Source: Lactobacillus sp. 0.1XD8-4 (lineage in GTDB: Bacteria > Bacillota > Bacilli > Lactobacillales > Lactobacillaceae). From it: 37,876 bases of DNA. Under the pieces are notes generated by a model that saw nothing but the letters and a program-made list of their open reading frames with translations, was not told the origin of the DNA and searched no databases. Location of the stretch: NCBI RefSeq assembly GCF_009663775.1, contig NZ_RDBR01000021.1, positions 1 through 37,876 on the forward strand, in the 5' to 3' direction. The position numbers and the translations under genes were made by a program. Below are positions 137 through 19,660 of this stretch, piece after piece. Position 1 is the stretch's first letter. The number at the start of each line of letters is the position of its first letter.

Positions 137-862
137 GTGGTACTAATTAAAAGATCACGATTTATTTTAATCTTATTTTATTTCATGCTATTTGGCAGTA
201 TTATTTATGCTTACCAAAATAGTTCACGATTCCAAGAACAAACTAATATTATTATCCATGATATTCAAGTATTTACCCAATCCTGGTTTCGTAAAATAAC
301 CGGTAAGGAACTTACAGCTCCCGTAAATCAAAATGCAGATCAACAAACCAATCAAGATGTTCCTACTGACGCACGATGGCAACAAAATTCTGCAACTATT
401 TATATCGATATAAGTAACACGGTATTAAAAAGTGCCACGGAAACTGCAATTTCACAATGGAATAATACCGGAGCTTTTAATTTTAAACGAGTAACTAATA
501 AAAAGGACGCTAATATTATTGTTTCAGCAGTAAACGACCCCAACAACGGTGCCGCTGGACTAACTAATACAAGCATGAACTCCGCAACAGGGTATTACCT
601 CCACGCGACTGTTAACCTAAACTCTTACTACTTGCTTAATCCTGCATTCGGTTATTCACAACAACGAATTGTTAATACAGCTGAACATGAGCTAGGCCAT
701 GCGATTGGTCTACAACATACCAATAAAACTTCTGTAATGCAGCCAGCTGGATCCTATTACCCTATTCAACCATTAGACATTCAACACGTAAAGGCATTGT
801 ACGCGCGCACACCTCAGCCCCCAGCATCACAAAATGAAAACGATCAAACAGTTAAAGAATAA
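137..862 (+). CDS. membrane-anchored matrixin-like zinc metalloprotease
   Basis: Predicted extracytoplasmic zinc peptidase of the matrixin/M10-like type. Counting from the GTG at 137 (241 residues), a basic KRSR stretch is followed by a hydrophobic segment at about residues 9-26, which is an uncleaved anchor or signal peptide. A linker rich in Q, N and D follows. The catalytic domain has the zinc motif HELGHAIGLQH at 184-194 (three His and the catalytic Glu) and a Met-turn at M201. Substrate is unknown. The start is problematic. The GTG at 137 lies inside the only good ribosome binding site (AGGGGGTGG, 132-140), and a TAG just upstream blocks extension. The codon at ideal spacing is ATT at 146, directly before KRSR, so AUU may be used or an ATG may have been mutated. 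An internal ATG at 185 would delete most of the anchor. The coordinates use the outermost conventional start codon. Confidence 0.8.
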   Translation: MVLIKRSRFILILFYFMLFGSIIYAYQNSSRFQEQTNIIIHDIQVFTQSWFRKITGKELTAPVNQNADQQTNQDVPTDARWQQNSATIYIDISNTVLKSATETAISQWNNTGAFNFKRVTNKKDANIIVSAVNDPNNGAAGLTNTSMNSATGYYLHATVNLNSYYLLNPAFGYSQQRIVNTAEHELGHAIGLQHTNKTSVMQPAGSYYPIQPLDIQHVKALYARTPQPPASQNENDQTVKE

Positions 863-4218: not shown

Positions 4219-5055
4219 ATGAATTTTTATATTATAGATAATGACAGCAAAATTATTCATTTATTATCCAATATTATCGAAAACGATTTCAATAATACGG
4301 TTGTTGGTACGACCTCAAATCCCCAACAGGCCTATGATGACGCCATGCGGTTAGGAATCGACATTATGTTTGTTGACTATGCAATGCCACAAATGGATGG
4401 CGTCAATCTGATTCAAAAGATTCAAGACAGCCATCACTACCCGCACTTTATTATGACTGCCCAGGCGATTCTCCCATCAGTAAAAACAAGCGCCTACCAA
4501 CATGGGATTGACTTTTTCATCGAAAAGCCCTTAAATATTGCAGAAGTTAAAACAGTTATTAAACTAGCAGCACAGAATATTAATATGTCAAACCGCCTTT
4601 TACAAGTTCTTGACCTTGTCAGCGGAGCAGCGACTAATAACAACACTGTCACAATCAGCGGAAAAAATAAAAAGAAAGAACAAGCACAGTCAATTCTACG
4701 CTTTCTTGGTATTACTGCCGGAAATGGAGCATCTGATATCACTAAGGTTATAAACATGATGATTGAACGCGAAATCAATTTTGACCAAGTCAGTTTTGAA
4801 AGGCTTTTTCAATGTGATAGCCACGGTAAGAAAATTATCTTTCAACGGATTCGACGTGATATTAAAGCTGGACTTAATAACCTTGCGCATATGTGCATGG
4901 ATTATCCAGAAAATGATATTATTCTTGAATATGCAAATAACTTATATGAATACAAAAACGTCCATAATGAAATGAGCTTTATTAAAGGCGACAAAAAAAG
5001 CGGCGGTCAAGTATCCTTAAAGCACTTTTTCAATGGATTAATCCAAGAAATATAA
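4219..5055 (+). CDS. orphan response regulator, YcbB/GlnL type
   Basis: A 278-residue protein with an N-terminal receiver domain (about 1-118) followed by a C-terminal domain resembling the YcbB/GlnL output domain. Receiver residues are intact: acidic D7 and D9, phospho-acceptor D53 in FVDYAMPQMDG, T80 and K103. The C-terminal half (about 140-278) has no OmpR, NarL or LytTR signature. In Bacillus this family (GlnL) works with an adjacent kinase to control glutamine utilisation genes. Here no kinase gene adjoins. The gene is divergent from arcBC and shares a regulatory region with it, so control of arginine catabolism is a reasonable but untested guess. The ribosome binding site is GGTGA, 7 bases before the ATG. 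Confidence 0.75.
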   Translation: MNFYIIDNDSKIIHLLSNIIENDFNNTVVGTTSNPQQAYDDAMRLGIDIMFVDYAMPQMDGVNLIQKIQDSHHYPHFIMTAQAILPSVKTSAYQHGIDFFIEKPLNIAEVKTVIKLAAQNINMSNRLLQVLDLVSGAATNNNTVTISGKNKKKEQAQSILRFLGITAGNGASDITKVINMMIEREINFDQVSFERLFQCDSHGKKIIFQRIRRDIKAGLNNLAHMCMDYPENDIILEYANNLYEYKNVHNEMSFIKGDKKSGGQVSLKHFFNGLIQEI

Positions 5056-5061
5056 ATAAAA

Positions 5062-5103
5062 CTCCTTGCTGGTACCATAGTTATACCAACAAGGGGTTTT
5101 TAT
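5062..5103. terminator. bidirectional terminator between the response regulator and xylB
   Basis: Hairpin CCTTGcTGGTA / TAtACCAaCAAGG followed by GGGGTTTTTATT on the plus strand, with TTTTATTT on the minus strand. It separates two convergent genes and overlaps the last base of the xylB stop codon. Confidence 0.8.
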
Positions 5104-6611
5104 TAATCCCAACTATTTCGTAATTTCATAATATCGTGACTAAGATCTTTAGTTTGGTCATAAATACGATGATAAATTTTGTACAATTCATCATACTTCT
5201 TTACTATTTCAGACTGCGGTTCATATGCCTTACCAAAATGGACAAATTTCTTTGCACAATCTTGAAGTGAATCAAACCATCCCAGCCCTACTGCAGCTAA
5301 CATTGCAGCACCGAGACCAGGACCTTGTTCATTAGTCAGGGACACTACCTTTTTATTAAAGATATTAGCCTGTAGTTGTAACCAGAAAGCACTTTTAGCT
5401 CCTCCCCCGATAGCAACAACCGTATCAAAATCTTGACCATGCTGATCATAAATCTTCAAGATATCACGAAAACTAAATGTGATTCCCTCAATTACCGCTC
5501 GCACAAAATCATACTTATTTTGCATACTGTCAACACCGATAAAGCTCCCCCGAACATCAGCGTCAGCGTATGGTGTCCGCTCACCGACAAGGTATGGCGT
5601 AAATATCAACCCATTAGCTCCTAATGGCCGTTCAGCTGCCTTATTAACCATTACTGTGAAATCTTCATCTTTAACAAAAGTATGCTTAAACCAATTTAAC
5701 GAATGCCCCGCAGCTAGCGTAACCCCCATTGAATAGTAAGTATCAGGAATTGCATGACATTCATATTGCAAAGCTCCATGATAATTAACATTTGCATCTG
5801 GTTCATACTTTAAGATTACGCCTGAGGTACCGATGCTGCTCATCACCATATTTGGTTTTAAGATGCCAGCTCCAACAGCTCCACAAGCATTATCACCACC
5901 GCCGCCAAAAACTTTGGTGGTGGTCTTTAATCCTGAAAACATTGCATACGAATCAGTAACCGTCCCCGCTTCATCAATTGAACGAATTAATGGTGGGCAC
6001 ATCGACATAGGAATGCCAAATTCATCACAGATTTCTTTACTCCAAGTATTCTTTTTAATATCAAATAAGACTGTTCCGGTTGCATCAGAATAATCAATTG
6101 CTTGTTTACCTGTCATTACATAACGAACATAGTCTTTCGGCAACAAGAAACTTTTTGCTTTTGCCCATATTTCTGGTTCATTCTCTTTTACCCAAAGAAG
6201 TTTGGGCAGTGTAAAACCTTCTAAAGCACGATTACCAGTAATATCGATAACCTTTTCGCCCATTTTTTCTTTAATTTCTTCACATTGTTTAGTCGTTCGA
6301 GTATCATTCCATAGCATTGCTGGACGTAACACTTGCCCGTCTGCATCTAATAATACCAAACCGTGCATTTGTCCCGAAAATGAGATTCCTTTAATTTCCT
6401 CAGCTTTTAGTCCATCTCGTAAAATCAACCGATCAATCGCAATCGTCGTTCCATAAAGCCAATCGCGTGGGTCTTGTTCGCTGTAGCCAGGGTGCGGCTG
6501 ATGAAGATCATAACCATAACTTTGCTGGGCTACAATTTTACCATCATGATCCATCGCTGAAACCTTAACCGCACTTGTTCCAAGGTCGACACCAATTACA
6601 TACTCATTCAT
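5103..6611 (-). CDS. xylB: xylulokinase
   Basis: Phosphorylates D-xylulose to xylulose-5-phosphate, which heterofermenters split by phosphoketolase. The 502-residue FGGY-family sugar kinase has phosphate loop [12 protein letters not shown] at about 5-16, SGQMHGL near 78-84 with an adjacent catalytic-region Asp, and the C-terminal ATP-binding [13 protein letters not shown] near 400-412. It is the second gene after xylA, 130 bp downstream. The gap contains a strong hairpin with T-runs and leaves no room for another promoter next to the start. Expression therefore probably depends on partial read-through or processing. The ribosome binding site is AAGGGAA. Confidence 0.95.
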
Positions 6612-6741: not shown

Positions 6742-8091
6742 TTACTTAGCAAGCGTTTCAATCATGTAGTGGTTAATTGTGTCCTTAATTTCTTCAAGAT
6801 GGTCTGAGTGAGTAGCTGCTAACAATTCACTTTGTGGAGTATCGATAACTTTTTCTTCAAGACTAGTGAAGTTTTCGTTACCATCTTCAATACTCTTACC
6901 AAGACCTTTATCCCAAGTTGAGTAACGTTCCTTAATAATGTCATCTAAGAAGCCGTCTTCCTTCATAGCAGCAGCAACACGAAGACCAGCGGCAAAGCTA
7001 TCCATTCCAACAATATGACCATAGAAGAGATCAACAGGTTTAAATGATGTTCGCCGTGGCTTAGCATCAAAGTTCAAGCCACCACGAGGTCCAATGCTAC
7101 CATTTTCAATAACTTCCCACATTGCACCAGTAGTTTCGTACAAGTTTGATGGGTATTCATCAATGTCCCAACCAATTAACTTGTCTCCCTGGTTAGCATC
7201 AAGCGAGCCGAGAAGACCAGCTTCACGAGCAACCCGAATTTCATGTTGGTAAGTGTGACCAGCTAAGTTTGCATGATTGCCTTCAAGATTAAGTTTGAAA
7301 TCTTTATCAAGACCGTATTCCCGCATAAAGTTGATGGTTGTTGCAGCATCAAAATCATATTGATGAGTAGTTGGTTCCTTTGGTTTTGGTTCAAGAAGCA
7401 TTTGAGCATCAAAGCCAATCTCGTTGGCATAGTCCTTAGCCATATGGAAGAACTTGGCGATGTGTGATTGTTCACGCTTCATATCAGTGTTCCATAATGA
7501 TTCGTAACCTTCACGACCACCCCAGAATACATAGTTCTCCGATCCAACACGCTTACCAACTTCAAGGCTGTGCTTTAATTGAGCAGCAGCATAAGCGTAA
7601 ATTTCGGCTGATGGAGATGTTCCTGCACCTTCCAAGAAACGAGGATTAGTAAAGAGATTTGAAGTATTCCAAAGAACTTTCATTCCAGTTGCTTTTTGAT
7701 ATTCAACAATCTTATCAACTACTTTATCCAAGTTCTTATTAGTTTCACGAAGCGTATCACCTTCTGGAGCTAAGTCCCGATCATGGAAACAAAGGAAGTC
7801 AACGCCAAGCTTGTTGTAGAATTCAAATGCATAATCAACTTTTGCTAAAGCACAATCCATTGGATCACTGTACTTGTCATATGGCCGTTGTGCTGTTCCA
7901 TCACCAAATGGATCAACTAAACGCTGATCAAAGGTGTGCCAATAAGCAACCGAAAAGCGGAGCCAATCTTTCATTTTCTTTCCTAAAATAACTTCTTCAG
8001 GATTGTAGTACTGATAGAACAACCCAGACTTAATACTTTTATGTGGTCCCTCATATTTAATCTTATTAATATCTTTCCATAAATCAGCCAT
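6742..8091 (-). CDS. xylA: xylose isomerase
   Basis: Isomerises D-xylose to D-xylulose in the cytosol using two divalent metal ions. At 449 residues it belongs to the longer class II form. Seen: [10 protein letters not shown] with catalytic His at about 103, WGGREGYE near 190, metal ligands in [16 protein letters not shown] near 235, [14 protein letters not shown] near 268-281, and LDANQGD / GWDIDEYP near 298-314. First gene of xylA-xylB. A strong promoter at 8145-8173 and an operator-like palindrome between promoter and gene point to control by a XylR repressor. The ribosome binding site is GGGAGG, 8 bases before the ATG. Confidence 0.97.
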
Positions 8092-8111: not shown

Positions 8112-8132
8112 TTAGTTTGTATAAACAACTAA
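8112..8132. promoter_or_regulatory. candidate XylR operator upstream of xylA
   Basis: TTAGTT-N9-AACTAA with an inner GTTTGTATAAAC palindrome, 20 bp before the xylA start and just downstream of the predicted transcription start. The same TTAGTT/AACTAA architecture recurs upstream of the xylose symporter (13769-13789). A shorter-spaced variant lies at 12546-12562. A ROK-family repressor gene lies in the same cluster. Confidence 0.65.
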
Positions 8133-8144
8133 CTTACAATTCTT

Positions 8145-8287: not shown

Positions 8288-8331
8288 AAAAGCTCATCAT
8301 AACTAGGTAAACCTAACTATGATGAGCTTTT
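8288..8331. terminator. terminator downstream of the deacetylase gene
   Basis: Long hairpin with 17- to 20-bp arms (AGCTCATCATA.../...TATGATGAGCT) and short T-tracts in both directions. It ends the symporter-xylosidase-deacetylase transcript and isolates it from xylA. Confidence 0.8.
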
Positions 8332-8340
8332 GAGTGATAT

Positions 8341-8937
8341 TTATTCAATTATTTTATTAGCACTATAAATTACTTTAGCTTTACTAAACTGCTTTTTCCC
8401 TACCAAATCTTGTAATGATAAAATTTCAAATTCATTCTCCAAGAGAAAACTAATAACATTTTCAATAGCTTCCGAATCAGCTAATTGAAAATCATGCATT
8501 AATATAATATCTCCATCCACGGCCTTTGTTATATTTAATAATACCTTCTTTTTATCATGATGATCCCAGCTCTTAGTATCTAAAGACCATATTATTGCTG
8601 GGCGAGTTAGATAAGGCAAAATGTTATTATTAATAGCTCCGAATGGTGGTCTAATTACCTCAGGAAAGTCTCCAGTAATGTTTCTGATTATCTCATCATC
8701 TTTTTTTAACTCTAATTGTACCCTGTTAGAATTGACTTTTGTTAAGTCAGTATGGGAGTACGTATGATTCCCAATTGTAAAAAGTGAATTTTCAGCTTCA
8801 CGTTTTAATATTTCTGGATATTTTTTCGCATGTTCTCCCCAAATCATAAATGTTGCAGGAATATTATATTTTTCTAAAACATGTGGCGTAGTTGCTTCCC
8901 AAGGTCCATCATCAAAAGTTAATGCTATTTTCTTCAA
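8341..8937 (-). CDS. cytosolic polysaccharide deacetylase (CE4/NodB domain), likely xylo-oligosaccharide acetyl esterase
   Basis: A 198-residue single-domain NodB-fold enzyme. All five CE4 motifs are visible: TFDDGP (7-12), the metal-binding HTYSH (about 58-62), RPPFG (about 95-99), the DTKSW Asp/Trp motif and LMHD near 148. There is no signal peptide or membrane segment, so it should act in the cytosol, unlike peptidoglycan deacetylases of this family. It is third in an operon with a glycoside symporter and a beta-xylosidase-like enzyme (17-bp gap). This suggests removal of acetyl groups from imported acetylated xylo-oligosaccharides, which is inference. It starts at TTG (AGAGATGTGA just upstream); no in-frame ATG is near. 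Other de-N- or O-acetylation substrates remain possible. Confidence 0.8.
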   Translation of the reverse strand: MKKIALTFDDGPWEATTPHVLEKYNIPATFMIWGEHAKKYPEILKREAENSLFTIGNHTYSHTDLTKVNSNRVQLELKKDDEIIRNITGDFPEVIRPPFGAINNNILPYLTRPAIIWSLDTKSWDHHDKKKVLLNITKAVDGDIILMHDFQLADSEAIENVISFLLENEFEILSLQDLVGKKQFSKAKVIYSANKIIE

Positions 8938-8954
8938 TATTCACATCTCTTTTT

Positions 8955-10994
8955 CTAGAATAACTTTTCTCCTATTTCTTCTTCGTCTGTAAATGGTCCA
9001 GCTGTCACTTTCACTCCTTCGCGATGTGTACCAAAGAAATCAGTATTAAATACAATTGCCGTACCATCAGGATTTTCATACTTCTCTTCAGGTTCAAATG
9101 CCATTTCAATAGTATCAGTTGAAATAACACCATCGGTCTTTTTAGGAAGAGCGTTGAAGAGATTAGTCTTCAGGACTAAGCCTTTATCCATTTGTTCAAG
9201 TTTTAGATATACTTCTTTATCAGAAATAATTGAGTCTTTTTCTGAATCACATGGTTGAGCCCCATTAAAGTAAACATTACCTCCTGTCCAGATTGGTAAA
9301 TGATTATAATAATGGTCACTATTTGGAGCATATATCCCACAATAACCATCAAATTGTTTCTTCCATTCTTCAAACGTTGGGTATCCATCAAACGGTTTAG
9401 TACCCACTGTAAAGTTATAATCATCCCAATCATCCGGTTCATCTTTCTTCATATCCGCTAGTCTTTTCATTTCTGGGCGTAACTTTTGTTGGACAAAAAT
9501 ATTATTGTAAAATTTATTATCTCCATGTTGAATGGTCATAAAGCCCATTACCTTAGTACCATGAATTTCATGATATGGTGTAAATCGATTAGACGGTAAA
9601 TTAACAGAATTGTTATCAGTACCACGTCCAGTTGCTGTAAAACTTCCTGCAATTAAATTATGAACAAATGCTACCCCTTGAGCTGCTAAACGAACAGATC
9701 GATCAGAAAGCAAGAGATTATTATCAATCAATGTAGGTCCATGAGATACCTCAATCCACATATCTTCTCCAAGACCAGATAAAATATCTCCAACATTATC
9801 CTTAGTGACCTTAAAGTCATTTGGCAAACTGTTATGATCAAATATATTTTGTGTAACTCGAGTTCCTTGCGCCTGCCAATCGAGCCATAATCCTCGAGTA
9901 CAATGGTGAATGTGATTATGGCGATAAGTTACATCAATTGCTGCGTGCATTTTAATTCCACCAATTTCAGCACCTGCAAGATTTTGTCGAACATTAATAT
10001 CATGAATGTCGTTATCTTCAATTAATGAGAATACACCGCCCAAATGACCAACTATTCCTGTTTGTCCACAATCGTGGATATGATTTTGCCGAATAATATG
10101 TGATCCGATATGTTCCTTATCCCAGCCATCATATGATGCTTGACAAATAACATCTCGTTCAGTTTGTGTACCATCCTTATATTTCCACTTTGACCACTTA
10201 TTATCATTGTTAGGTTGAAGATATTTACCGAGAGAAATTCCTGAACATTTAGAATGGGAAATATCACATTTTTCAATGATCCATCCTTTTGACCAATGTG
10301 GTCCTACCATTCCTTCTTGATATGCTGTTGGCGGAGCCCATTGTGTTGCTGCTTTCGTTAAACCAAATCCAGACAATGTGATATAACCTATACCTTCTGC
10401 TTGTGGATAAAAGCAATTTTCACGAACGTTAATTTCAACATTTTCTTCATTAGGATTATTTCCTTGGAAATTAGCATAAATGATTGTTTCATTGTTTTTA
10501 TTATCTTGTTCAGTAAACCATGTGTACACAGTGTCATCTGGATACCATGATTTCTCATTACGAATTGGTTTTTTTACTTCATCAAGCGTGTTTACTTCAT
10601 ACAGTGCTTTATTATTTAAATAAACTTCACCTGTGTGGGCAACAATTCGTGCGTCAAACCAGTCACCATAGACCTTAGTTGTATATGGGTTATAATTGCC
10701 AAAAATACTATTAGGGATAATTACTTTCCAAACGTTATCCTTCACCTTTTCCCAACTAGTTACACGCTCAGCTCCAGTAATAACAGCGCCTAAATTTTCA
10801 ATTGATTTATAAGTAATTTGTGCATTTGCATTTCCGGCATGTTTTGGATTTACATTTTCGCGATAAACTCCAGGGGCTACTAATACTGTGTCCCCTGCCC
10901 GAGCAATATTTGCTGCTGATTGAATTGTCTTAAATGGATGCCCTTTCGTCCCATTGCCATCAATTAATGCATTTTTATCCACATATATATTCAT
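8955..10994 (-). CDS. GH120-like beta-xylosidase (right-handed beta-helix)
   Basis: A 679-residue protein that opens with a DUF1565-like segment (NIYVDKNALIDGNGTKGHPF, then the helix repeat GDTVLVAPGVYREN). It continues as a right-handed parallel beta-helix with many N/H/D-rich turns. Length and fold match GH120 exo-beta-xylosidases of xylo-oligosaccharide users. The family uses an Asp nucleophile and a Glu acid/base; candidates here are the Asp in GLWLDWQAQG (about 375) and the Glu in MWIEVSHGP (about 418). No signal peptide is present, so it should act inside the cell on imported oligosaccharides. The start is placed at 10994, because AGGAGA abuts the ATG at 11003 but is 8 bases from this one. 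It is 21 bp after the GPH symporter gene. Other beta-helix glycosidases cannot be excluded. Confidence 0.7.
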   Translation of the reverse strand: MNIYVDKNALIDGNGTKGHPFKTIQSAANIARAGDTVLVAPGVYRENVNPKHAGNANAQITYKSIENLGAVITGAERVTSWEKVKDNVWKVIIPNSIFGNYNPYTTKVYGDWFDARIVAHTGEVYLNNKALYEVNTLDEVKKPIRNEKSWYPDDTVYTWFTEQDNKNNETIIYANFQGNNPNEENVEINVRENCFYPQAEGIGYITLSGFGLTKAATQWAPPTAYQEGMVGPHWSKGWIIEKCDISHSKCSGISLGKYLQPNNDNKWSKWKYKDGTQTERDVICQASYDGWDKEHIGSHIIRQNHIHDCGQTGIVGHLGGVFSLIEDNDIHDINVRQNLAGAEIGGIKMHAAIDVTYRHNHIHHCTRGLWLDWQAQGTRVTQNIFDHNSLPNDFKVTKDNVGDILSGLGEDMWIEVSHGPTLIDNNLLLSDRSVRLAAQGVAFVHNLIAGSFTATGRGTDNNSVNLPSNRFTPYHEIHGTKVMGFMTIQHGDNKFYNNIFVQQKLRPEMKRLADMKKDEPDDWDDYNFTVGTKPFDGYPTFEEWKKQFDGYCGIYAPNSDHYYNHLPIWTGGNVYFNGAQPCDSEKDSIISDKEVYLKLEQMDKGLVLKTNLFNALPKKTDGVISTDTIEMAFEPEEKYENPDGTAIVFNTDFFGTHREGVKVTAGPFTDEEEIGEKLF

Positions 10995-11015
10995 ACTAGA
11001 CATCTCCTTACTTAT

Positions 11016-12512
11016 TTAGTTTTTAGCAGCTTTTCTTTTATTTTCAATTTCATGATTGATTTTATCTACTTCCGGATCACTTAATGGATATTTACTCATT
11101 ATCCACATTGCAACTACAGCTAAAATAATTGGAATCCAAATCATAGAAATAGAAATACCTGTTAAAGCAGAAGCTGGCTGTGTTGCCTTTGTTCCGTTAA
11201 AGTGACAGAAGGCATTTATATACCCTGGAATAATGCCACCTAATGCTAAACCAATCTTAAAGAAAAGTCCCATAATAGAGTTAATAATTCCAGCAACACG
11301 TTTCTTGGAATGCCATTCACCATAAGAAATAACTTCTGGAACTAGTGACCACATATATCCTGTAGCCGCTGTAATTCCCCATTGCATTATAAAACGTCCA
11401 ATATAACCAAGAGTAATATTATTCTTGAAAGCAGGAAATGACCATATCCACAAAATTAATTGACCAATGATAAACAGTATTAAGAATAAGTAGAAGAATC
11501 CTTTTTTACCTATCTTTTTCCGAATAATTGGCCATAGGAATACAAGAAAAATACCAGGAATTGAACCAATAAGATTAATCGACGCCATCCATTCCGAATG
11601 ACCAATATTATATTGAAGGAAGAATGGCCATACAGTATTACCGAAAAACATAAATGTAAAGCCAATCAGGAAGAACCAGCCAAGAATTTGAAGTGGTTTA
11701 TTGTCGATTAATTCATTCCACAAGTCAGAAAACTTTACTGATTCAGTTTCTTCTTTTGTTGGTAAGACACGTTCTTTAATCCCAAAATAAGTGCACAATA
11801 ACATAATAAAGCCAATAATCATGTAAATAATCATAACTTTGAAATAAGCATTTGCTGCATGGGGAGATGCATAATTCCCTAAGTCCAATTTAATTCCAAA
11901 TAATCCAATGCTCTGAAGCTTTTTATCAGGTGATGCTAATTGAACAAATAATGGCAGGAAGGTATACACTAGTAAATTTCCAATATTAGCTTCTGTCATT
12001 CTTACAGTAGTAAGCGTAGAAACTTCATCATTATCTCTAGTTAGTGACGCATTTAAAGAACCATATGGAATATTGACAAATGAATAAATTAGAGCTGTTG
12101 CTAAATACATAAAGAATGCATAAAAAACATTCCCTCTAACTGCTGGGATTGGCAAAAACAGTAACGCACAACAAATTGTTAGCGGAATACCAAAATAAAT
12201 TAAAAACGGTCGATACTTTCCTCCATGCTTAAAATGACTTTTATCAACGACAGTTCCTACCCATGGATCCCAAAAAACATTAACCCAACGAACAATTAAA
12301 AATATTGTCGCTCCGGCTGCAGCAGAAATTCCAAAAACTGTAGTAAGATAGAACAATAACATTGAACCTATTGTTCCAAAAATCAAATTTTGTGCTAAAT
12401 CTCCAGCACCGTAACAAATTCTTTCTCGCCAAGAAAGTTTTGCAAATTCATTTACTTTTTCTGTTGTCGATGAATCTGTTTCAACAACCTTTTGTGTTGG
12501 TACATTTTCCAT
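11016..12512 (-). CDS. GPH-family xyloside/oligosaccharide:cation symporter
   Basis: A 498-residue, 12-helix MFS protein of the glycoside-pentoside-hexuronide family. Diagnostic features are SWRERICYGAGDLAQNL before helix 1, RWVNVFWDPWVGTVVDK with the family's conserved Asp near helix 2, and KHGGKYRPF in the first cytoplasmic loop. The closest functional type is XylP-like xyloside transport, inferred from the operon: beta-xylosidase and CE4 deacetylase genes follow at once. First gene of the operon, preceded by a cre site and an operator-like palindrome. The ribosome binding site is GAAAGGAT. Confidence 0.9.
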   Translation of the reverse strand: MENVPTQKVVETDSSTTEKVNEFAKLSWRERICYGAGDLAQNLIFGTIGSMLLFYLTTVFGISAAAGATIFLIVRWVNVFWDPWVGTVVDKSHFKHGGKYRPFLIYFGIPLTICCALLFLPIPAVRGNVFYAFFMYLATALIYSFVNIPYGSLNASLTRDNDEVSTLTTVRMTEANIGNLLVYTFLPLFVQLASPDKKLQSIGLFGIKLDLGNYASPHAANAYFKVMIIYMIIGFIMLLCTYFGIKERVLPTKEETESVKFSDLWNELIDNKPLQILGWFFLIGFTFMFFGNTVWPFFLQYNIGHSEWMASINLIGSIPGIFLVFLWPIIRKKIGKKGFFYLFLILFIIGQLILWIWSFPAFKNNITLGYIGRFIMQWGITAATGYMWSLVPEVISYGEWHSKKRVAGIINSIMGLFFKIGLALGGIIPGYINAFCHFNGTKATQPASALTGISISMIWIPIILAVVAMWIMSKYPLSDPEVDKINHEIENKRKAAKN

Positions 12513-12545
12513 TTTCTCTCATCCTTTCAATTTATCTAATGTAAG

Positions 12546-12562
12546 TTAGTTGTATAAACTGA
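12546..12562. promoter_or_regulatory. candidate XylR operator upstream of the GPH symporter
   Basis: TTAGTT-N5-AACTGA inside a block that also matches the xylA and xylT upstream regions (ACAACYAACTTACA when read on either strand). It sits about 35 bp before the symporter start. Spacer length differs from the other two sites, so affinity may differ. Confidence 0.5.
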
Positions 12563-12585: not shown

Positions 12586-12602
12586 ATTGTATCCGCTTTC
12601 AT
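12586..12602 (-). promoter_or_regulatory. cre site and -10 of the xyloside operon
   Basis: On the minus strand ATGAAAGCGGATACA (12588-12602) fits the cre consensus at all fixed positions. It overlaps a likely -10 TACAAT (12586-12591), so CcpA binding would block this promoter directly. Confidence 0.6.
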
Positions 12603-12664: not shown

Positions 12665-13582
12665 TTATTCAAAATAGCCTGTCCTATTTTTTGATTTTAC
12701 CGAGCGTTTTCTAATAATTTGTTTACGAAATTCACTTGGCGAATATCCTGACCATTTCTTAAATTGTTTACTGAAGATTGAAATATTAGCTGCACCAACC
12801 ATATACGCAACTTCTTCAATAGAATTACCTGAATATTCAAGAAGTCGTTGTGCTTTTTTGTACTTCTCCCGATCAATAAAGTGCAATGGAGTTGTGCCAT
12901 AAACTTTCTTAAACACACGATGTCCGTACCCGCTGCTAATTCCTAATTCCTTACATAGATCGCTAAAGTTAAAAGAAGGCTTTTCATCATCATTATTAAC
13001 CCGATTTTCAATAGCAATTACTAAATCACGACTAATTTGTGCTTCCTTATTTGAAAATGGTAAAGAGGAATTATGACTATACTCTTTCTTAATCAAAAGG
13101 TTAACCTGTTTTAAATATTGAAGTAATAAAATTTCAATTTCAACTTGAACATTAAAATCACTTGTATGCTTTTTATCGCGACATAAATTTATAATTTCTT
13201 TTAACATATCATAAGATACATTTGCTAACTGTGAATTTGCCGGAATTAACTTATTACTAATTAAACTAATAATCTGTGACCTTAACTGAACATCTTCAAA
13301 GTCAAAATGTAAACACATATAAGTCATTGGCGCTATTTTGCTTATATTACTATTTGTGTGCAAGGTTCCCGGTGCGATAATAATTACATCCCCAGGGCCT
13401 AAAGTTATTGAACCTTGATCACGAATAGAAGTTAGCTGTGATCCGTCAGTAACAACCATTACTTCAAATACTTGATGTTTTTGTTCAAAAAAGCTCCAAC
13501 CCCCATTAACGGTATGTTTATGTCCACCAAACATATACAAGCCAGATTCAATTGTTGGAATAGATATAAAATTTTTCAACAT
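12665..13582 (-). CDS. AraC-family transcriptional regulator with cupin-like sensor
   Basis: A 305-residue regulator. The N-terminal part (about 1-110) is a cupin-like sugar-sensing fold with GPGDVIIIAPGTLHT. The C-terminal 100 residues form the two-helix-turn-helix AraC/XylS DNA-binding domain (SDLCKELGISSGYGHRVFKK, then SIEEVAYMVGAANISIFSKQ). It is divergent from the xylose symporter, and three TATGATTTTAT repeats, two of them exactly 21 bp apart, lie in the shared region, as is typical for AraC-type activators. It probably activates xylose or xyloside genes in response to a pentose or oligosaccharide. The ligand is not known. Confidence 0.9.
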   Translation of the reverse strand: MLKNFISIPTIESGLYMFGGHKHTVNGGWSFFEQKHQVFEVMVVTDGSQLTSIRDQGSITLGPGDVIIIAPGTLHTNSNISKIAPMTYMCLHFDFEDVQLRSQIISLISNKLIPANSQLANVSYDMLKEIINLCRDKKHTSDFNVQVEIEILLLQYLKQVNLLIKKEYSHNSSLPFSNKEAQISRDLVIAIENRVNNDDEKPSFNFSDLCKELGISSGYGHRVFKKVYGTTPLHFIDREKYKKAQRLLEYSGNSIEEVAYMVGAANISIFSKQFKKWSGYSPSEFRKQIIRKRSVKSKNRTGYFE

Positions 13583-13789: not shown

Positions 13790-13853
13790 CTAAATACAAA
13801 CAACCAACTTACAATATTTTTCACTGTCTGTATTTATAGTTAGGAGTTTCGAC

Positions 13854-15251
13854 ATGAAACATAAATTATCATCAAGTTGGATATATTTTTTTGCAGCTTT
13901 AGGCGGGTTACTCTTTGGTTATGATACTGGTTCTATTTCAGGAGCAATCCTCTTTATTGAAAAGCAATTATCATTAAATTCATGGCAACAAGGATGGGTA
14001 GTTTCAGCTGTCCTTGTCGGTGCAATCATCGGTGCAATTACAATTGGACCTTTCTCTGACCGCTTTGGACGTCGTAAATTATTGTTATTAACATCGGTTT
14101 TATTTTTCTTCGGAGCATTAGGTTCTGGATTAGCTCCTGAGTTTTGGACATTGATTTTTACACGAATTATCCTTGGACTAGCAGTTGGGGCTGCTTCCTC
14201 ATTAATCCCTACTTACCTTGCAGAATTAGCACCAGTTGCTAAACGTGGTATGATGTCTGGGATGTTTCAGTTTATGATTATGTCTGGTTTACTGTTAGCT
14301 TACATTCTTAATTATTCTCTTCAGGGAATTTATACTGGTTGGCGCTGGATGTTAGGATTCGCAGCGATTCCTGCAGCAATTTTATTTATTGGTGCCCTTA
14401 TCTTACCCGAATCTCCACGGTACTTGGTTCGTAATGATAAAGAGCATATTGCTCGCGAAGTTTTAATGACAATGAATAATAATGACGAGCAAGTTGTGAA
14501 CGGTGATATTGCTAAAATCAAAAAACAAGCTGAAATTGTTTCTGGTGGATGGAAAGAGCTATTCGGCTTAATGGTTCGTCCTGCATTAATTGCTGCCGTC
14601 GGTTTAGCTATTTTCCAACAAGTAATGGGTTGTAATACTGTTCTGTATTATGCACCGACGATTTTTACTGATGCTGGTTTCGGTGTTCATTTTGCCTTAC
14701 TCTCACATATCTGGATTGGTATCTTTAATGTTATCGTTACTTTTATCGGTATCTATCTAATGAATAAAGTAAGCCGACGCAAGATGTTAATTGTTGGTGG
14801 TTGGCTCATGGGGATTACCCTCTTTATTATGTGCTGGGGATTGATGTACTCAAGCGATTCTAAATTTGCTGCTGATATTGCTGTTATTTCAATGGTTATC
14901 TATATTGCATCATTTTCTGGTACATGGGGACCAATCATGTGGACTATGATTGGTGAGATGTTCCCACTTAATATCCGTGGTCTCGGTAACTCCTTTGCCG
15001 CTGGCGTTAACTGGACAGCCAATGCAATCGTTTCAGTAACTTTCCCTCCACTACTCAGTTTCTTCGGGAAAGGTACCCTCTTTATTGGCTACGGAATCTT
15101 CTGTCTTTTAGCTATTTGGTTTGTTCACTCTAAAGTCTTTGAAACACAAGGTAAGTCTCTTGAATCAATCGAACAATGGTTGCGTGACCAAGCTACTAAA
15201 AAACAAAAGAATCCATCTTCTGAAACTGCTACCATACAAAAAGAAAATTAA
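13854..15251 (+). CDS. xylT: D-xylose:H+ symporter (sugar porter family)
   Basis: A 465-residue MFS sugar porter with 12 membrane helices. Seen: GGLLFGYDTGSISGAI in helix 1, the loop 2-3 motif DRFGRRK (about 65-71), PESPRYLV at the end of helix 6, QQVMGCNTVLYYAPTIF in helix 7 with the sugar-binding QQ, and the second RR motif SRRK. It imports free pentose. Xylose is inferred from its place among xylA, xylB and xyl regulators; arabinose or glucose are alternatives for this family. The ribosome binding site is AGGAG. Its upstream region has a cre site, an operator palindrome and possible AraC-type repeats. Confidence 0.88.
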   Translation: MKHKLSSSWIYFFAALGGLLFGYDTGSISGAILFIEKQLSLNSWQQGWVVSAVLVGAIIGAITIGPFSDRFGRRKLLLLTSVLFFFGALGSGLAPEFWTLIFTRIILGLAVGAASSLIPTYLAELAPVAKRGMMSGMFQFMIMSGLLLAYILNYSLQGIYTGWRWMLGFAAIPAAILFIGALILPESPRYLVRNDKEHIAREVLMTMNNNDEQVVNGDIAKIKKQAEIVSGGWKELFGLMVRPALIAAVGLAIFQQVMGCNTVLYYAPTIFTDAGFGVHFALLSHIWIGIFNVIVTFIGIYLMNKVSRRKMLIVGGWLMGITLFIMCWGLMYSSDSKFAADIAVISMVIYIASFSGTWGPIMWTMIGEMFPLNIRGLGNSFAAGVNWTANAIVSVTFPPLLSFFGKGTLFIGYGIFCLLAIWFVHSKVFETQGKSLESIEQWLRDQATKKQKNPSSETATIQKEN

Positions 15252-15943: not shown

Positions 15944-17125
15944 TTAATCAACGTTTTTAACCTCCTTTGGCCATTTAAAGTGTAATAAATAATCATCTAA
16001 CCCCAGCGCGCGATGGATTGCCAGCGAACTAGCCCCGAGCAAGGAGGTCATCCGCGATCCCTTAATCATCCGAATAGGTGAGAATATTCCTAATTCCACT
16101 AATCTATCGCGTATCATTACATACATTTCTGGTAAATCTTCAAACAAGGTCGAATTGAAATATACTTTTTCTGGTCCATAAGATACAACTGCATTGTAAG
16201 AAGCCTCTGCAATGAGGTAAGCAGCATGATTTAAAATGTGTTTTACTTGCTCATCCTCATGATAAAGCTTCACTAATTCTGTGCTTGTTAATGAGGTTAA
16301 GTTTTTGACATCCATTACCTGACGGATAATCGCTTCTTCAGAACATAAAGATTCAACCTTTACAAGTTGCCGTGATTCACCATCTAGGTCATTAGAGATT
16401 AAACTTCTCCCAATTTCGCCAGCCATTCCGCGAAAACCACGATATAGGCTGTGATTTGCAATAATCCCCACACCAATTCCCCGATGGATACTAATAGTTA
16501 TTAAATCACGAATGTTTTGGTTAGCACCAAAGTCTTGTTCAAAAACTGCTGATAAATTAGCTTCATTTTCCAAAACAACTGGTACGCCAAATTCTTTACT
16601 GAAATATTCTTCGAGATCAATACCTTGTAACTCAAGAAATGGCGAGTCAATTATCTTATTATCATGCACAATTCCGTGAATTGAAAATGCAATTGCAAGC
16701 AAACCATGTTGGGTTGAATCAACATGTTGAAGTTTTTTAATTTCTTTCTTGATCATTTGCATAATGTTTAAAATATCAAATTTTTTTATTGGTTCTCGGC
16801 TATATTGAATAATTTCTCCATTCAGATAATTAAACATTGCTGCCATATATGTTGTTCCAATATTAAAACTTGCAACATACCCATAATTATGGTTCAAGCT
16901 AACAAGATGAGGCTTGCGTCCACCGCTACTTGTTGATTCTCCTTGGCGAACGCCTTCGATAAATCCCTCTGCATTTAATTCATCATATATTGACGAAACT
17001 GTAGACTTATTCAAGTTAAGCTGACGTGCTATTTCTGCTCGTGATGTTTCAGTATTATTAAATAACTGTTGTAATACAAGTTTTTTATTTTGTATCCGTG
17101 AAAGATTACGATGGTCATTTATCAT
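15944..17125 (-). CDS. xylR: ROK-family xylose repressor
   Basis: A 393-residue ROK-family regulator. A winged helix-turn-helix fills residues 1-80 (NKKLVLQQLFNNTETSRAEIA, LNLNKSTVSSIYDEL). The rest is a sugar-kinase-like fold. The kinase phosphate loop is degraded (NIGTT instead of DIGGT) and the usual CxCGxxGCxE zinc motif is replaced by a segment with only one Cys (ESLCSEEAI), so it should bind sugar without kinase activity. As in XylR of other Firmicutes, it likely releases operators when xylose is present. Candidate targets are the TTAGTT/AACTAA sites at xylA, xylT and the xyloside operon. No such site is seen at its own promoter. The ribosome binding site is GGAGA. Confidence 0.88.
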   Translation of the reverse strand: MINDHRNLSRIQNKKLVLQQLFNNTETSRAEIARQLNLNKSTVSSIYDELNAEGFIEGVRQGESTSSGGRKPHLVSLNHNYGYVASFNIGTTYMAAMFNYLNGEIIQYSREPIKKFDILNIMQMIKKEIKKLQHVDSTQHGLLAIAFSIHGIVHDNKIIDSPFLELQGIDLEEYFSKEFGVPVVLENEANLSAVFEQDFGANQNIRDLITISIHRGIGVGIIANHSLYRGFRGMAGEIGRSLISNDLDGESRQLVKVESLCSEEAIIRQVMDVKNLTSLTSTELVKLYHEDEQVKHILNHAAYLIAEASYNAVVSYGPEKVYFNSTLFEDLPEMYVMIRDRLVELGIFSPIRMIKGSRMTSLLGASSLAIHRALGLDDYLLHFKWPKEVKNVD

Positions 17126-19045: not shown

Positions 19046-19660
19046 ATGGATCAAAATACGCAAGACATGCTCGCCGGTAATCCCTACCGCCCAGGAACGC
19101 CAGAACTAAATAAGTTTTCACACCTTGCCCATCGTCTTTGTCGTGATTATAACTTAACGGCCGATGAAGATACTGTTGAACGAACAATGATTATTGACCG
19201 CCTTTTCCCTAATCACGCAGAGGGTATCTATCTTCAAGGTCCTATTCACATTGACTACGGACGTTTTACCACGATTGGTAAGAATTTCTATGCTAATTTT
19301 AACTTCACTATTCTCGATACCTGTCCTGTCGTGATTGGGGATAATGTAATGTGCGGTCCAAACGTTTCATTGATTACCGCCATGCATCCCCTCATGTATC
19401 AGCAACGTAATATTCGCCAACAAGCTGATGGACAATTCGATGACGTTGAATATGGGAAGCCGATTACCATTGGCGATAATTGTTGGCTCGCTAGCAATGT
19501 TACCATCTGTCCCGGAGTCACAATTGGCAACGGGTGTGTAATCGGGGCAGGAACAGTCGTCACAAAAGATATTCCTGATAATTCCCTTGTCCTTGGTGTA
19601 CCCGGAAAGGTTATTCGTACTATCACAGAAAAAGATCGCCTTGAAAATTATCCTTATTAA
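19046..19660 (+). CDS. maltose/galactoside O-acetyltransferase-like (LbH hexapeptide)
   Basis: Acetyl-CoA dependent sugar O-acetyltransferase of the MAT/GAT type, 204 residues. Seen: the family's N-terminal helical part (DMLAGNPYRPGTPEL), then left-handed beta-helix hexapeptide repeats from about residue 63 to 190. It has the catalytic His region TAMHPLMYQQRN near 112-123 and the closing GVTIGNGCVIGAGTVVTKDIPDNSLVLGVPGKVIR split over the last turns. It probably detoxifies excess sugars by acetylation; the substrate is unknown. A cre site on its start predicts repression by preferred sugars. The ribosome binding site is AAAGGAAG. Confidence 0.88.
   Translation: MDQNTQDMLAGNPYRPGTPELNKFSHLAHRLCRDYNLTADEDTVERTMIIDRLFPNHAEGIYLQGPIHIDYGRFTTIGKNFYANFNFTILDTCPVVIGDNVMCGPNVSLITAMHPLMYQQRNIRQQADGQFDDVEYGKPITIGDNCWLASNVTICPGVTIGNGCVIGAGTVVTKDIPDNSLVLGVPGKVIRTITEKDRLENYPY

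Follow-up and report, generated by a model that had tools for sequence, protein, structure and literature searches.

A short CE4 deacetylase without a signal peptide in a predicted GPH–GH120 operon of a Lactobacillus, and a proposed intracellular route for acetylated xylo-oligosaccharides

The strategy of deacetylating xylan fragments inside the cell has already been proposed for Geobacillus and Bifidobacterium, and a cluster combining GH120, GPH and XylA/XylB genes is known from L. reuteri. In the hemicellulose locus of Geobacillus, a CE4 gene lies in a xylo-oligosaccharide cluster; its authors suggested that the encoded esterase, Axe1, acts on xylan or on internalised oligomers, perhaps together with the intracellular GDSL esterase Axe2, and the native substrate of Axe1 is described as unknown (PMC4194401). 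The same locus is reported to encode an intracellular GH10 xylanase and CUT1 transporters (PMC4194401). In Bifidobacterium, xylo-oligosaccharides upregulate putative esterases along with GH43, GH8, GH120, xylose isomerase and xylulokinase, and the esterases have been proposed to act on xylan fragments imported by an ABC system (PMC3684542; PMC6344601). In the beta-mannan loci of Faecalibacterium and Roseburia, oligosaccharides imported by an ABC system are deacetylated intracellularly by the complementary esterases CE2 and CE17 (PMC8262883). The Lr-XylC cluster of L. reuteri encodes GH120, a GPH symporter, xylose isomerase, xylulokinase and ROK and AraC regulators; its GH120 is cytoplasmic and active on xylobiose to xylotetraose, the xylo-oligosaccharide used in that work was non-acetylated, and the word 'deacetylase' does not occur in the main text of the report (PMC8954004). 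Acetylated xylan has been reported to promote the growth of some Lactobacillus strains, so there is precedent for lactobacilli using acetylated material (PMC6344601).

Here, we describe a locus of Lactobacillus sp. 0.1XD8-4 in which a CE4 gene accompanies genes for a GPH symporter and a GH120 enzyme. The window, by which we mean the whole stretch of DNA that was analysed, comprises 37,876 nucleotides (contig NZ_RDBR01000021.1, positions 1 to 37,876 of the forward strand). As in Geobacillus, an esterase that lacks a signal peptide is encoded in a xylo-oligosaccharide cluster; however, a GPH symporter and GH120 stand here where Geobacillus has CUT1 transporters and an intracellular GH10 xylanase. 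The route that we propose resembles that of Bifidobacterium in relying on imported fragments and differs in its importer, a GPH symporter rather than an ABC system. The loci of Faecalibacterium and Roseburia serve mannan with the serine esterases CE2 and CE17, whereas the present cluster is of the xylan type and contains a CE4 predicted to be metal-dependent. With L. reuteri, the window shares the GH120, the GPH symporter, both xylose enzymes and both types of regulator. A literature search of titles and abstract openings, with most subscription journals outside it, found no deacetylase in a Lactobacillaceae xylo-oligosaccharide operon. What appears to be new is a clade of cytosolic CE4 proteins and its repeated tie to differently built xylan operons. 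Taken as a whole, GPH import, cytosolic deacetylation by CE4, cleavage by GH120 and conversion by XylA and XylB are, in our judgement, a likely account of how acetylated xylo-oligosaccharides would be used by this organism.

The three genes lie on the reverse strand, and their identification as a GPH symporter, a GH120-like beta-xylosidase and a CE4-type deacetylase in the first-pass annotation was borne out, with exact coordinates and firm profile matches. The first encodes a GPH-family oligosaccharide:cation symporter and putative xyloside importer (11016..12512, minus strand; PF13347, 287.9 bits), whose score of 304.8 bits against TIGR00792 (cut-off 231.35) places it in the GPH family; a specificity for acetylated xylo-oligosaccharides, which family membership does not reveal, is something that we infer. 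The second encodes a GH120 beta-xylosidase (8955..11003, minus strand) that scores 485 bits against the GH120 xylosidase structure 3vst and contains both the beta-helix (PF13229, 26.1 bits) and the GH120 insertion domain (PF21258, 132.2 bits). The catalytic Asp and Glu are conserved, D375 and E418 aligning with the nucleophile and the acid/base of 3vst; the catalytic pair of the solved GH120 enzyme is given as Asp382/Glu405 (PMC8954004). The third encodes the CE4 deacetylase, a protein of 198 residues with a TTG start (8341..8937, minus strand; PF01522, 103.5 bits against a cut-off of 23.1). Elsewhere in the same genome (L096:7635-9497, G000:C45) there is a second, shorter GH120-like ORF, 38% identical, at an odd site for a xylosidase: it touches or overlaps an ORF of the pyruvate phosphate dikinase type, and ORFs resembling triose-phosphate isomerase and fructose-bisphosphate aldolase were recognised by eye downstream. 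Similarly short GH120s occur in three genomes of the same genus.

The gaps between the genes are 12 bp (GPH–GH120) and 17 bp (GH120–CE4), and a terminator-like hairpin with a 20-bp stem lies directly 3' of CE4 (8288..8331, minus strand), its fold z of -6.15 being equalled in 0 of 200 shuffles. These short gaps and the hairpin right after CE4 suggest a single transcription unit, so that the layout agrees with the co-transcription claimed earlier, which itself stays a prediction. The hairpin is absent from the listing of a simple terminator scan; the promoter and terminator scans yielded no more than shuffles did and were left unused.

Genes for xylose metabolism flank the predicted operon, and the earlier description of xylA, xylB, a xylose symporter and two regulators alongside it held for all of them by profile match. 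On the minus strand are xylA, encoding xylose isomerase (6742..8091; TIGR02630, 685.9 bits, cut-off 533.25), xylB, encoding xylulokinase (5103..6611; TIGR01312, 586.9 bits, cut-off 380.25), an AraC-family regulator gene (12665..13582; PF12833, 69.9 bits; PF02311, 29 bits) and the gene for a ROK-family regulator that is XylR-like by position (15944..17125; PF00480, 114.2 bits). The plus strand encodes a sugar-porter MFS symporter resembling xylose symporters (13854..15251; TIGR00879, 348.5 bits, cut-off 237.8), for which the specific models GlcP and XylE both score below cut-off. An acetyltransferase-like gene (19046-19660, plus strand) sits two genes past the ROK regulator of the xyl block. 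A response regulator with a YcbB domain is encoded between an ornithine carbamoyltransferase gene and xylB (4219-5055, plus strand); no kinase gene is among the identified genes directly beside it. The window further encodes a Matrixin-like (Peptidase_M10) small protein of 241 residues (137-862, plus strand).

Putative XylR boxes lie upstream of GPH (12541..12553, plus strand; GTAAGTTAGTTGT, an exact copy of GTAAGTTRGTTGT), of xylA (8125..8137, minus strand) and of the xylose symporter gene (13800..13812, minus strand), the latter two following the GTAAGTTRGTTGT pattern. Three zero-mismatch copies of GTAAGTTRGTTGT occur in the window against a mean of 0.00 and a largest count of 0 in 100 shuffles, the pattern having been derived from the very sites that it then counts. 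Among 17 loci of relatives scanned, some of which share a genome, 10 contain the core box GTAAGTTRGTT, with a copy just upstream of xylA in 8 of those 10. The GTAAGTTRGTTGT box may be an XylR operator. Also upstream of GPH is a cre-like site (12587..12602, minus strand) that exactly matches WTGNAARCGNWWNCAW, which we take to be the cre consensus; with at most one mismatch this pattern matches 12 times against a shuffle mean of 3.01, and 1 of the 12 is exact. The operon would be controlled by XylR and by carbon catabolite control.

The absence of a signal peptide from both enzymes, as claimed in the first-pass annotation, was confirmed. In CE4, the TTG at 8937 is the sole start codon ahead of the motif TFDDGP, with an in-frame stop (TGA) two codons further upstream; since the start is bounded in this way and the motif already occupies residues 7-12, a signal peptide cannot be accommodated. 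The N-terminus of GH120 is not strongly hydrophobic, the best 17-residue mean in the first 60 residues being 0.9. We then scored as signal- or membrane-like any stretch before the domain with a 17-residue Kyte–Doolittle mean above 1.6. Such a stretch precedes the domain in none of the eight members of the CE4 clade described below but in 16 of 21 control CE4s; of the five controls without one, three fall below the threshold (1.38-1.54), one was missed by the pattern and one is truly short (L089, from genome G189). The general statement that CE4 enzymes are normally secreted is therefore correct for most but not always.

CE4 enzymes are built on the NodB domain, with the motifs TFDDGP, H-S/T-x-x-H, RPP, D-x-x-x-W and L-x-H. 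Residues D9, D10, H58, H62, R96, D120, W124 and H148 are present in the window protein and invariant in a seven-row alignment of the clade; we presume that D10, H58 and H62 form the metal triad and that D9 is the base, with H148 as a further catalytic residue. An AlphaFold2 model built from 15 sequences (mean pLDDT 86.6) has the CE4 fold, its top Foldseek match being the deacetylase ArCE4A (5lfz; E 1.2e-19, TM 0.88); further matches include PdaC and PgdA, two acetylxylan esterases (7fbw and 2c71) and a CE4 domain from a xylanase (7ax7). By sequence and structure alike, the nearest solved relatives include peptidoglycan and chitin deacetylases. The predicted fold is compatible with O- and N-deacetylation alike and does not settle the substrate.

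The genomic context of CE4 favours a xylan substrate. Among 397 genomes of the family, taken as Lactobacillaceae, 89 had a match to CE4, and the surroundings of the best matches were fetched. Together with the window, they yield a CE4 clade of eight members, seven intact and one decayed (G330), which share the signature FM[IL]WG[EQ]H, the other CE4s listed reading TFF..G.. instead. All eight lie in xylose or xylan loci beside GH120, GH43 or GH3 enzymes, whereas none of the 21 control CE4 loci contains a relative of xylA, xylB, GH120, GH43, GH3, GH67, SASA or GDSL (tblastn, E 1e-10, in stretches of 12-17 kb). The controls were the 20 best-scoring matches outside the clade, not a random draw, with L052 left out and L089 added as the twenty-first. 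In seven of the eight clade loci xylA is within about 8 kb of CE4; in G158 it is about 12 kb away, visible only in an extended stretch of a kind that the controls did not get.

The clade loci are differently built (ABC genes were identified by eye). In G279, whose CE4 is 60% identical to that of the window, the order is ROK-xylA-xylB-two symporters-CE4-transposase-AraC-GH43-GPH-GH43-SASA, with CE4 as a lone gene on the opposite strand; its upstream region yielded a cre-like site alone and no XylR-type box. G330 (53%) has xylA and xylB and then GH43-GPH-GH43-SASA-CE4; the CE4 copy ending this row (L084:7920-8536) is disrupted at the N-terminus by an in-frame stop and a change of frame and looks decayed. 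The remaining loci read ABC-GH3-CE4-xylB-xylA-ROK (G181), GH67-GDSL-xylA-xylB-CE4-GH3-GH8-GH115-GH43 (G083), ROK-GH31-xylA-xylB-CE4-GH3 (G052), ROK-ABC-xylA-xylB-CE4-GH3-GH1 (G107) and CE4-ROK-two genes on the other strand-ABC-GH67-GDSL-ROK-xylA-xylB-GH3 (G158). Partner esterases thus comprise SASA in G279 and G330 and GDSL, with GH67, in G083 and G158; GH115 and GH8 are also present in G083. The G083 cluster (L086/L169) apparently encodes a pathway for glucuronoxylan oligomers that is cytosolic for the most part, the start of its GH8 containing a borderline hydrophobic stretch (1.62).

Being related, the clade members do not represent eight independent events. Profile A2 gives the seven intact members 297-345 bits, and the next best among the matches listed reach at most 232 bits in 395 genomes of the order and at most 214 bits in 398 genomes of the phylum; these next-best frames are, among the matches listed, at least 278 residues long in the order and at least 223 in the phylum. 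A careful tree of 71 rows recovers the eight-member clade with support 100/99, after the removal of 25 near-copies and nine long rows (including L003 and the short CE4 of G189), a pruning that could influence the clade. In a quick tree of 105 rows, with G330 outside the labelled group, the clade was split, and the window, G279 and G330 joined the very long row L003. A scan with CE4 across genome contigs gave 21 loci with 27-38% identity, from cyanobacteria, Actinomycetota, one Bradyrhizobiaceae and one Ruminococcus record.

The contrast between clade and controls strengthens the earlier proposal that a cytosolic CE4 acts on imported xylo-oligosaccharides as far as its xylan context is concerned; that the substrate is acetylated, and imported as such, is presumed. 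The contrast also bears on the alternative that CE4 removes N-acetyl groups from imported chito-oligosaccharides or from recycled sugars of the cell wall, its place in the operon being due to chance or to shared regulation. N-acetyl groups, too, are removed by enzymes of the CE4 family, for which N-acetyl sugars are frequent substrates, and the best structure and sequence matches of the window protein include ArCE4A, PdaC and PgdA. Nevertheless, the whole clade resides in xylose or xylan clusters with differing beta-xylosidase families, unlike the 21 other CE4 loci of the family, and those genes beside the window CE4 that could be identified belong to xylose and xylan use, so that we regard N-deacetylation as unlikely.

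The occurrence of CE4 within genera is sporadic. It is the sole PF01522 match in its own genome and is found in 1 of 50 genomes of the genus (E 1e-20); at E 1e-65, a limit chosen to catch only the clade, CE4 occurs in 1 of 35 genomes of the G279 genus, 1 of 30 of the G107 genus and 4 of 8 of the G181 genus. Five loci of the window's genus (L091-L095) encode GPH 84-92% and GH120 76-81% identical to those of the window and lack CE4. At 30.8%, the GC content of the CE4 gene is the lowest of eight genes measured (window, 37.5%), although the GC3 of the AraC, GPH and GH120 genes is about as low, so that GC alone does not single out CE4. Together, the sporadic occurrence and low GC suggest that CE4 was acquired by transfer. 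These observations could also describe a recently acquired passenger of little effect beside a self-sufficient GPH–GH120 pair, and the decayed copy in G330 would fit as well. We find this quite improbable for the window, where the predicted fold and every catalytic motif are intact; moreover, the clade has repeatedly kept this kind of context across different genera.

On plasmids, 298 records match CE4 at E 1e-10 and three match GH120 at E 1e-20, all with less than 60% identity, and nothing points to a copy of the GPH-GH120-CE4 operon among them. A Levilactobacillus brevis plasmid (NZ_CP147491.1:27083-29086) carries a GH120 gene 53% identical to that of the window; thus, GH120 genes can be plasmid-borne in the family. 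CE4 would be a family 'spare part', resembling the exported peptidoglycan-deacetylase-like domains of the order but lacking the anchors, and was probably handed from one xylan cluster to another. In its fuller form, the clade marked by FM[IL]WG[EQ]H would have arisen in Lactobacillaceae from such exported domains by anchor loss, been re-aimed at acetylated xylo-oligosaccharides and moved horizontally between clusters of the GPH-GH120, GH43-GPH-GH43-SASA, ABC-GH3 and GH67-GDSL-GH3-GH8-GH115 types; to this history we give even chances. A short anchorless CE4 is also known outside any xylan context (L089 in G189). That CE4 instead salvages acetylation made in the cell, on xylose or xylosides by a sugar O-acetyltransferase, finds a candidate partner in the maltose-O-acetyltransferase-like product of 19046-19660, with its Mac and hexapeptide domains, but is very improbable, as this gene is not part of the operon, being separated from it by the ROK regulator and a phosphoglucose-isomerase-like gene, and as several clade loci contain additional esterases and alpha-glucuronidases of the sort that go with decorated plant xylan.

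The reading that we favour is CE4 as a digestive enzyme for imported, acetylated xylo-oligosaccharides. The GPH symporter would bring in short xylo-oligosaccharides, some of them O-acetylated, and the presumably metal-dependent, cytosolic CE4 would strip single O-2 or O-3 acetyls that block the exo-acting enzyme; GH120 would then cleave the bare oligomer to xylose, which XylA and XylB would convert to xylulose 5-phosphate. The CE4 family is counted among the esterases active on O-2 and O-3 monoacetylated xylose units (PMC9105624). No SASA (PF03629) match was found in the genome of the window, so CE4 may remove just part of the acetyl groups; in four clade loci (G279, G330, G083 and G158) a SASA or GDSL esterase is added, as though the task called for two esterases of differing positional specificity. 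The further suggestion that this strategy denies debris to competitors was not supported: it presupposes that the cell itself makes the debris, and in the genome no xylanase of GH10, the endoxylanase family searched, was found, while the three GH43 matches fall in two ORFs with no obvious signal peptide by eye. For these reasons, scavenging of oligomers freed by other microbes, a form of cross-feeding, is likelier.

The CE4 gene thus offers a testable candidate to explain why certain lactobacilli might exploit the acetylated xylo-oligosaccharides of plant fibre when closely related species might not. Near relatives that share the importer and the cutter may make incomplete use of acetyl-decorated fragments, and species with and without CE4 beside the same GPH-GH120 pair offer a natural comparison for prebiotic work. 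The clade also suggests that a deacetylase fold of the cell-wall type has been reused for nutrition. If its proposed history is true, CE4 would be a plug-in by which one species within a genus, its GPH-GH120 operon otherwise standard, gains the use of acetylated oligomers.
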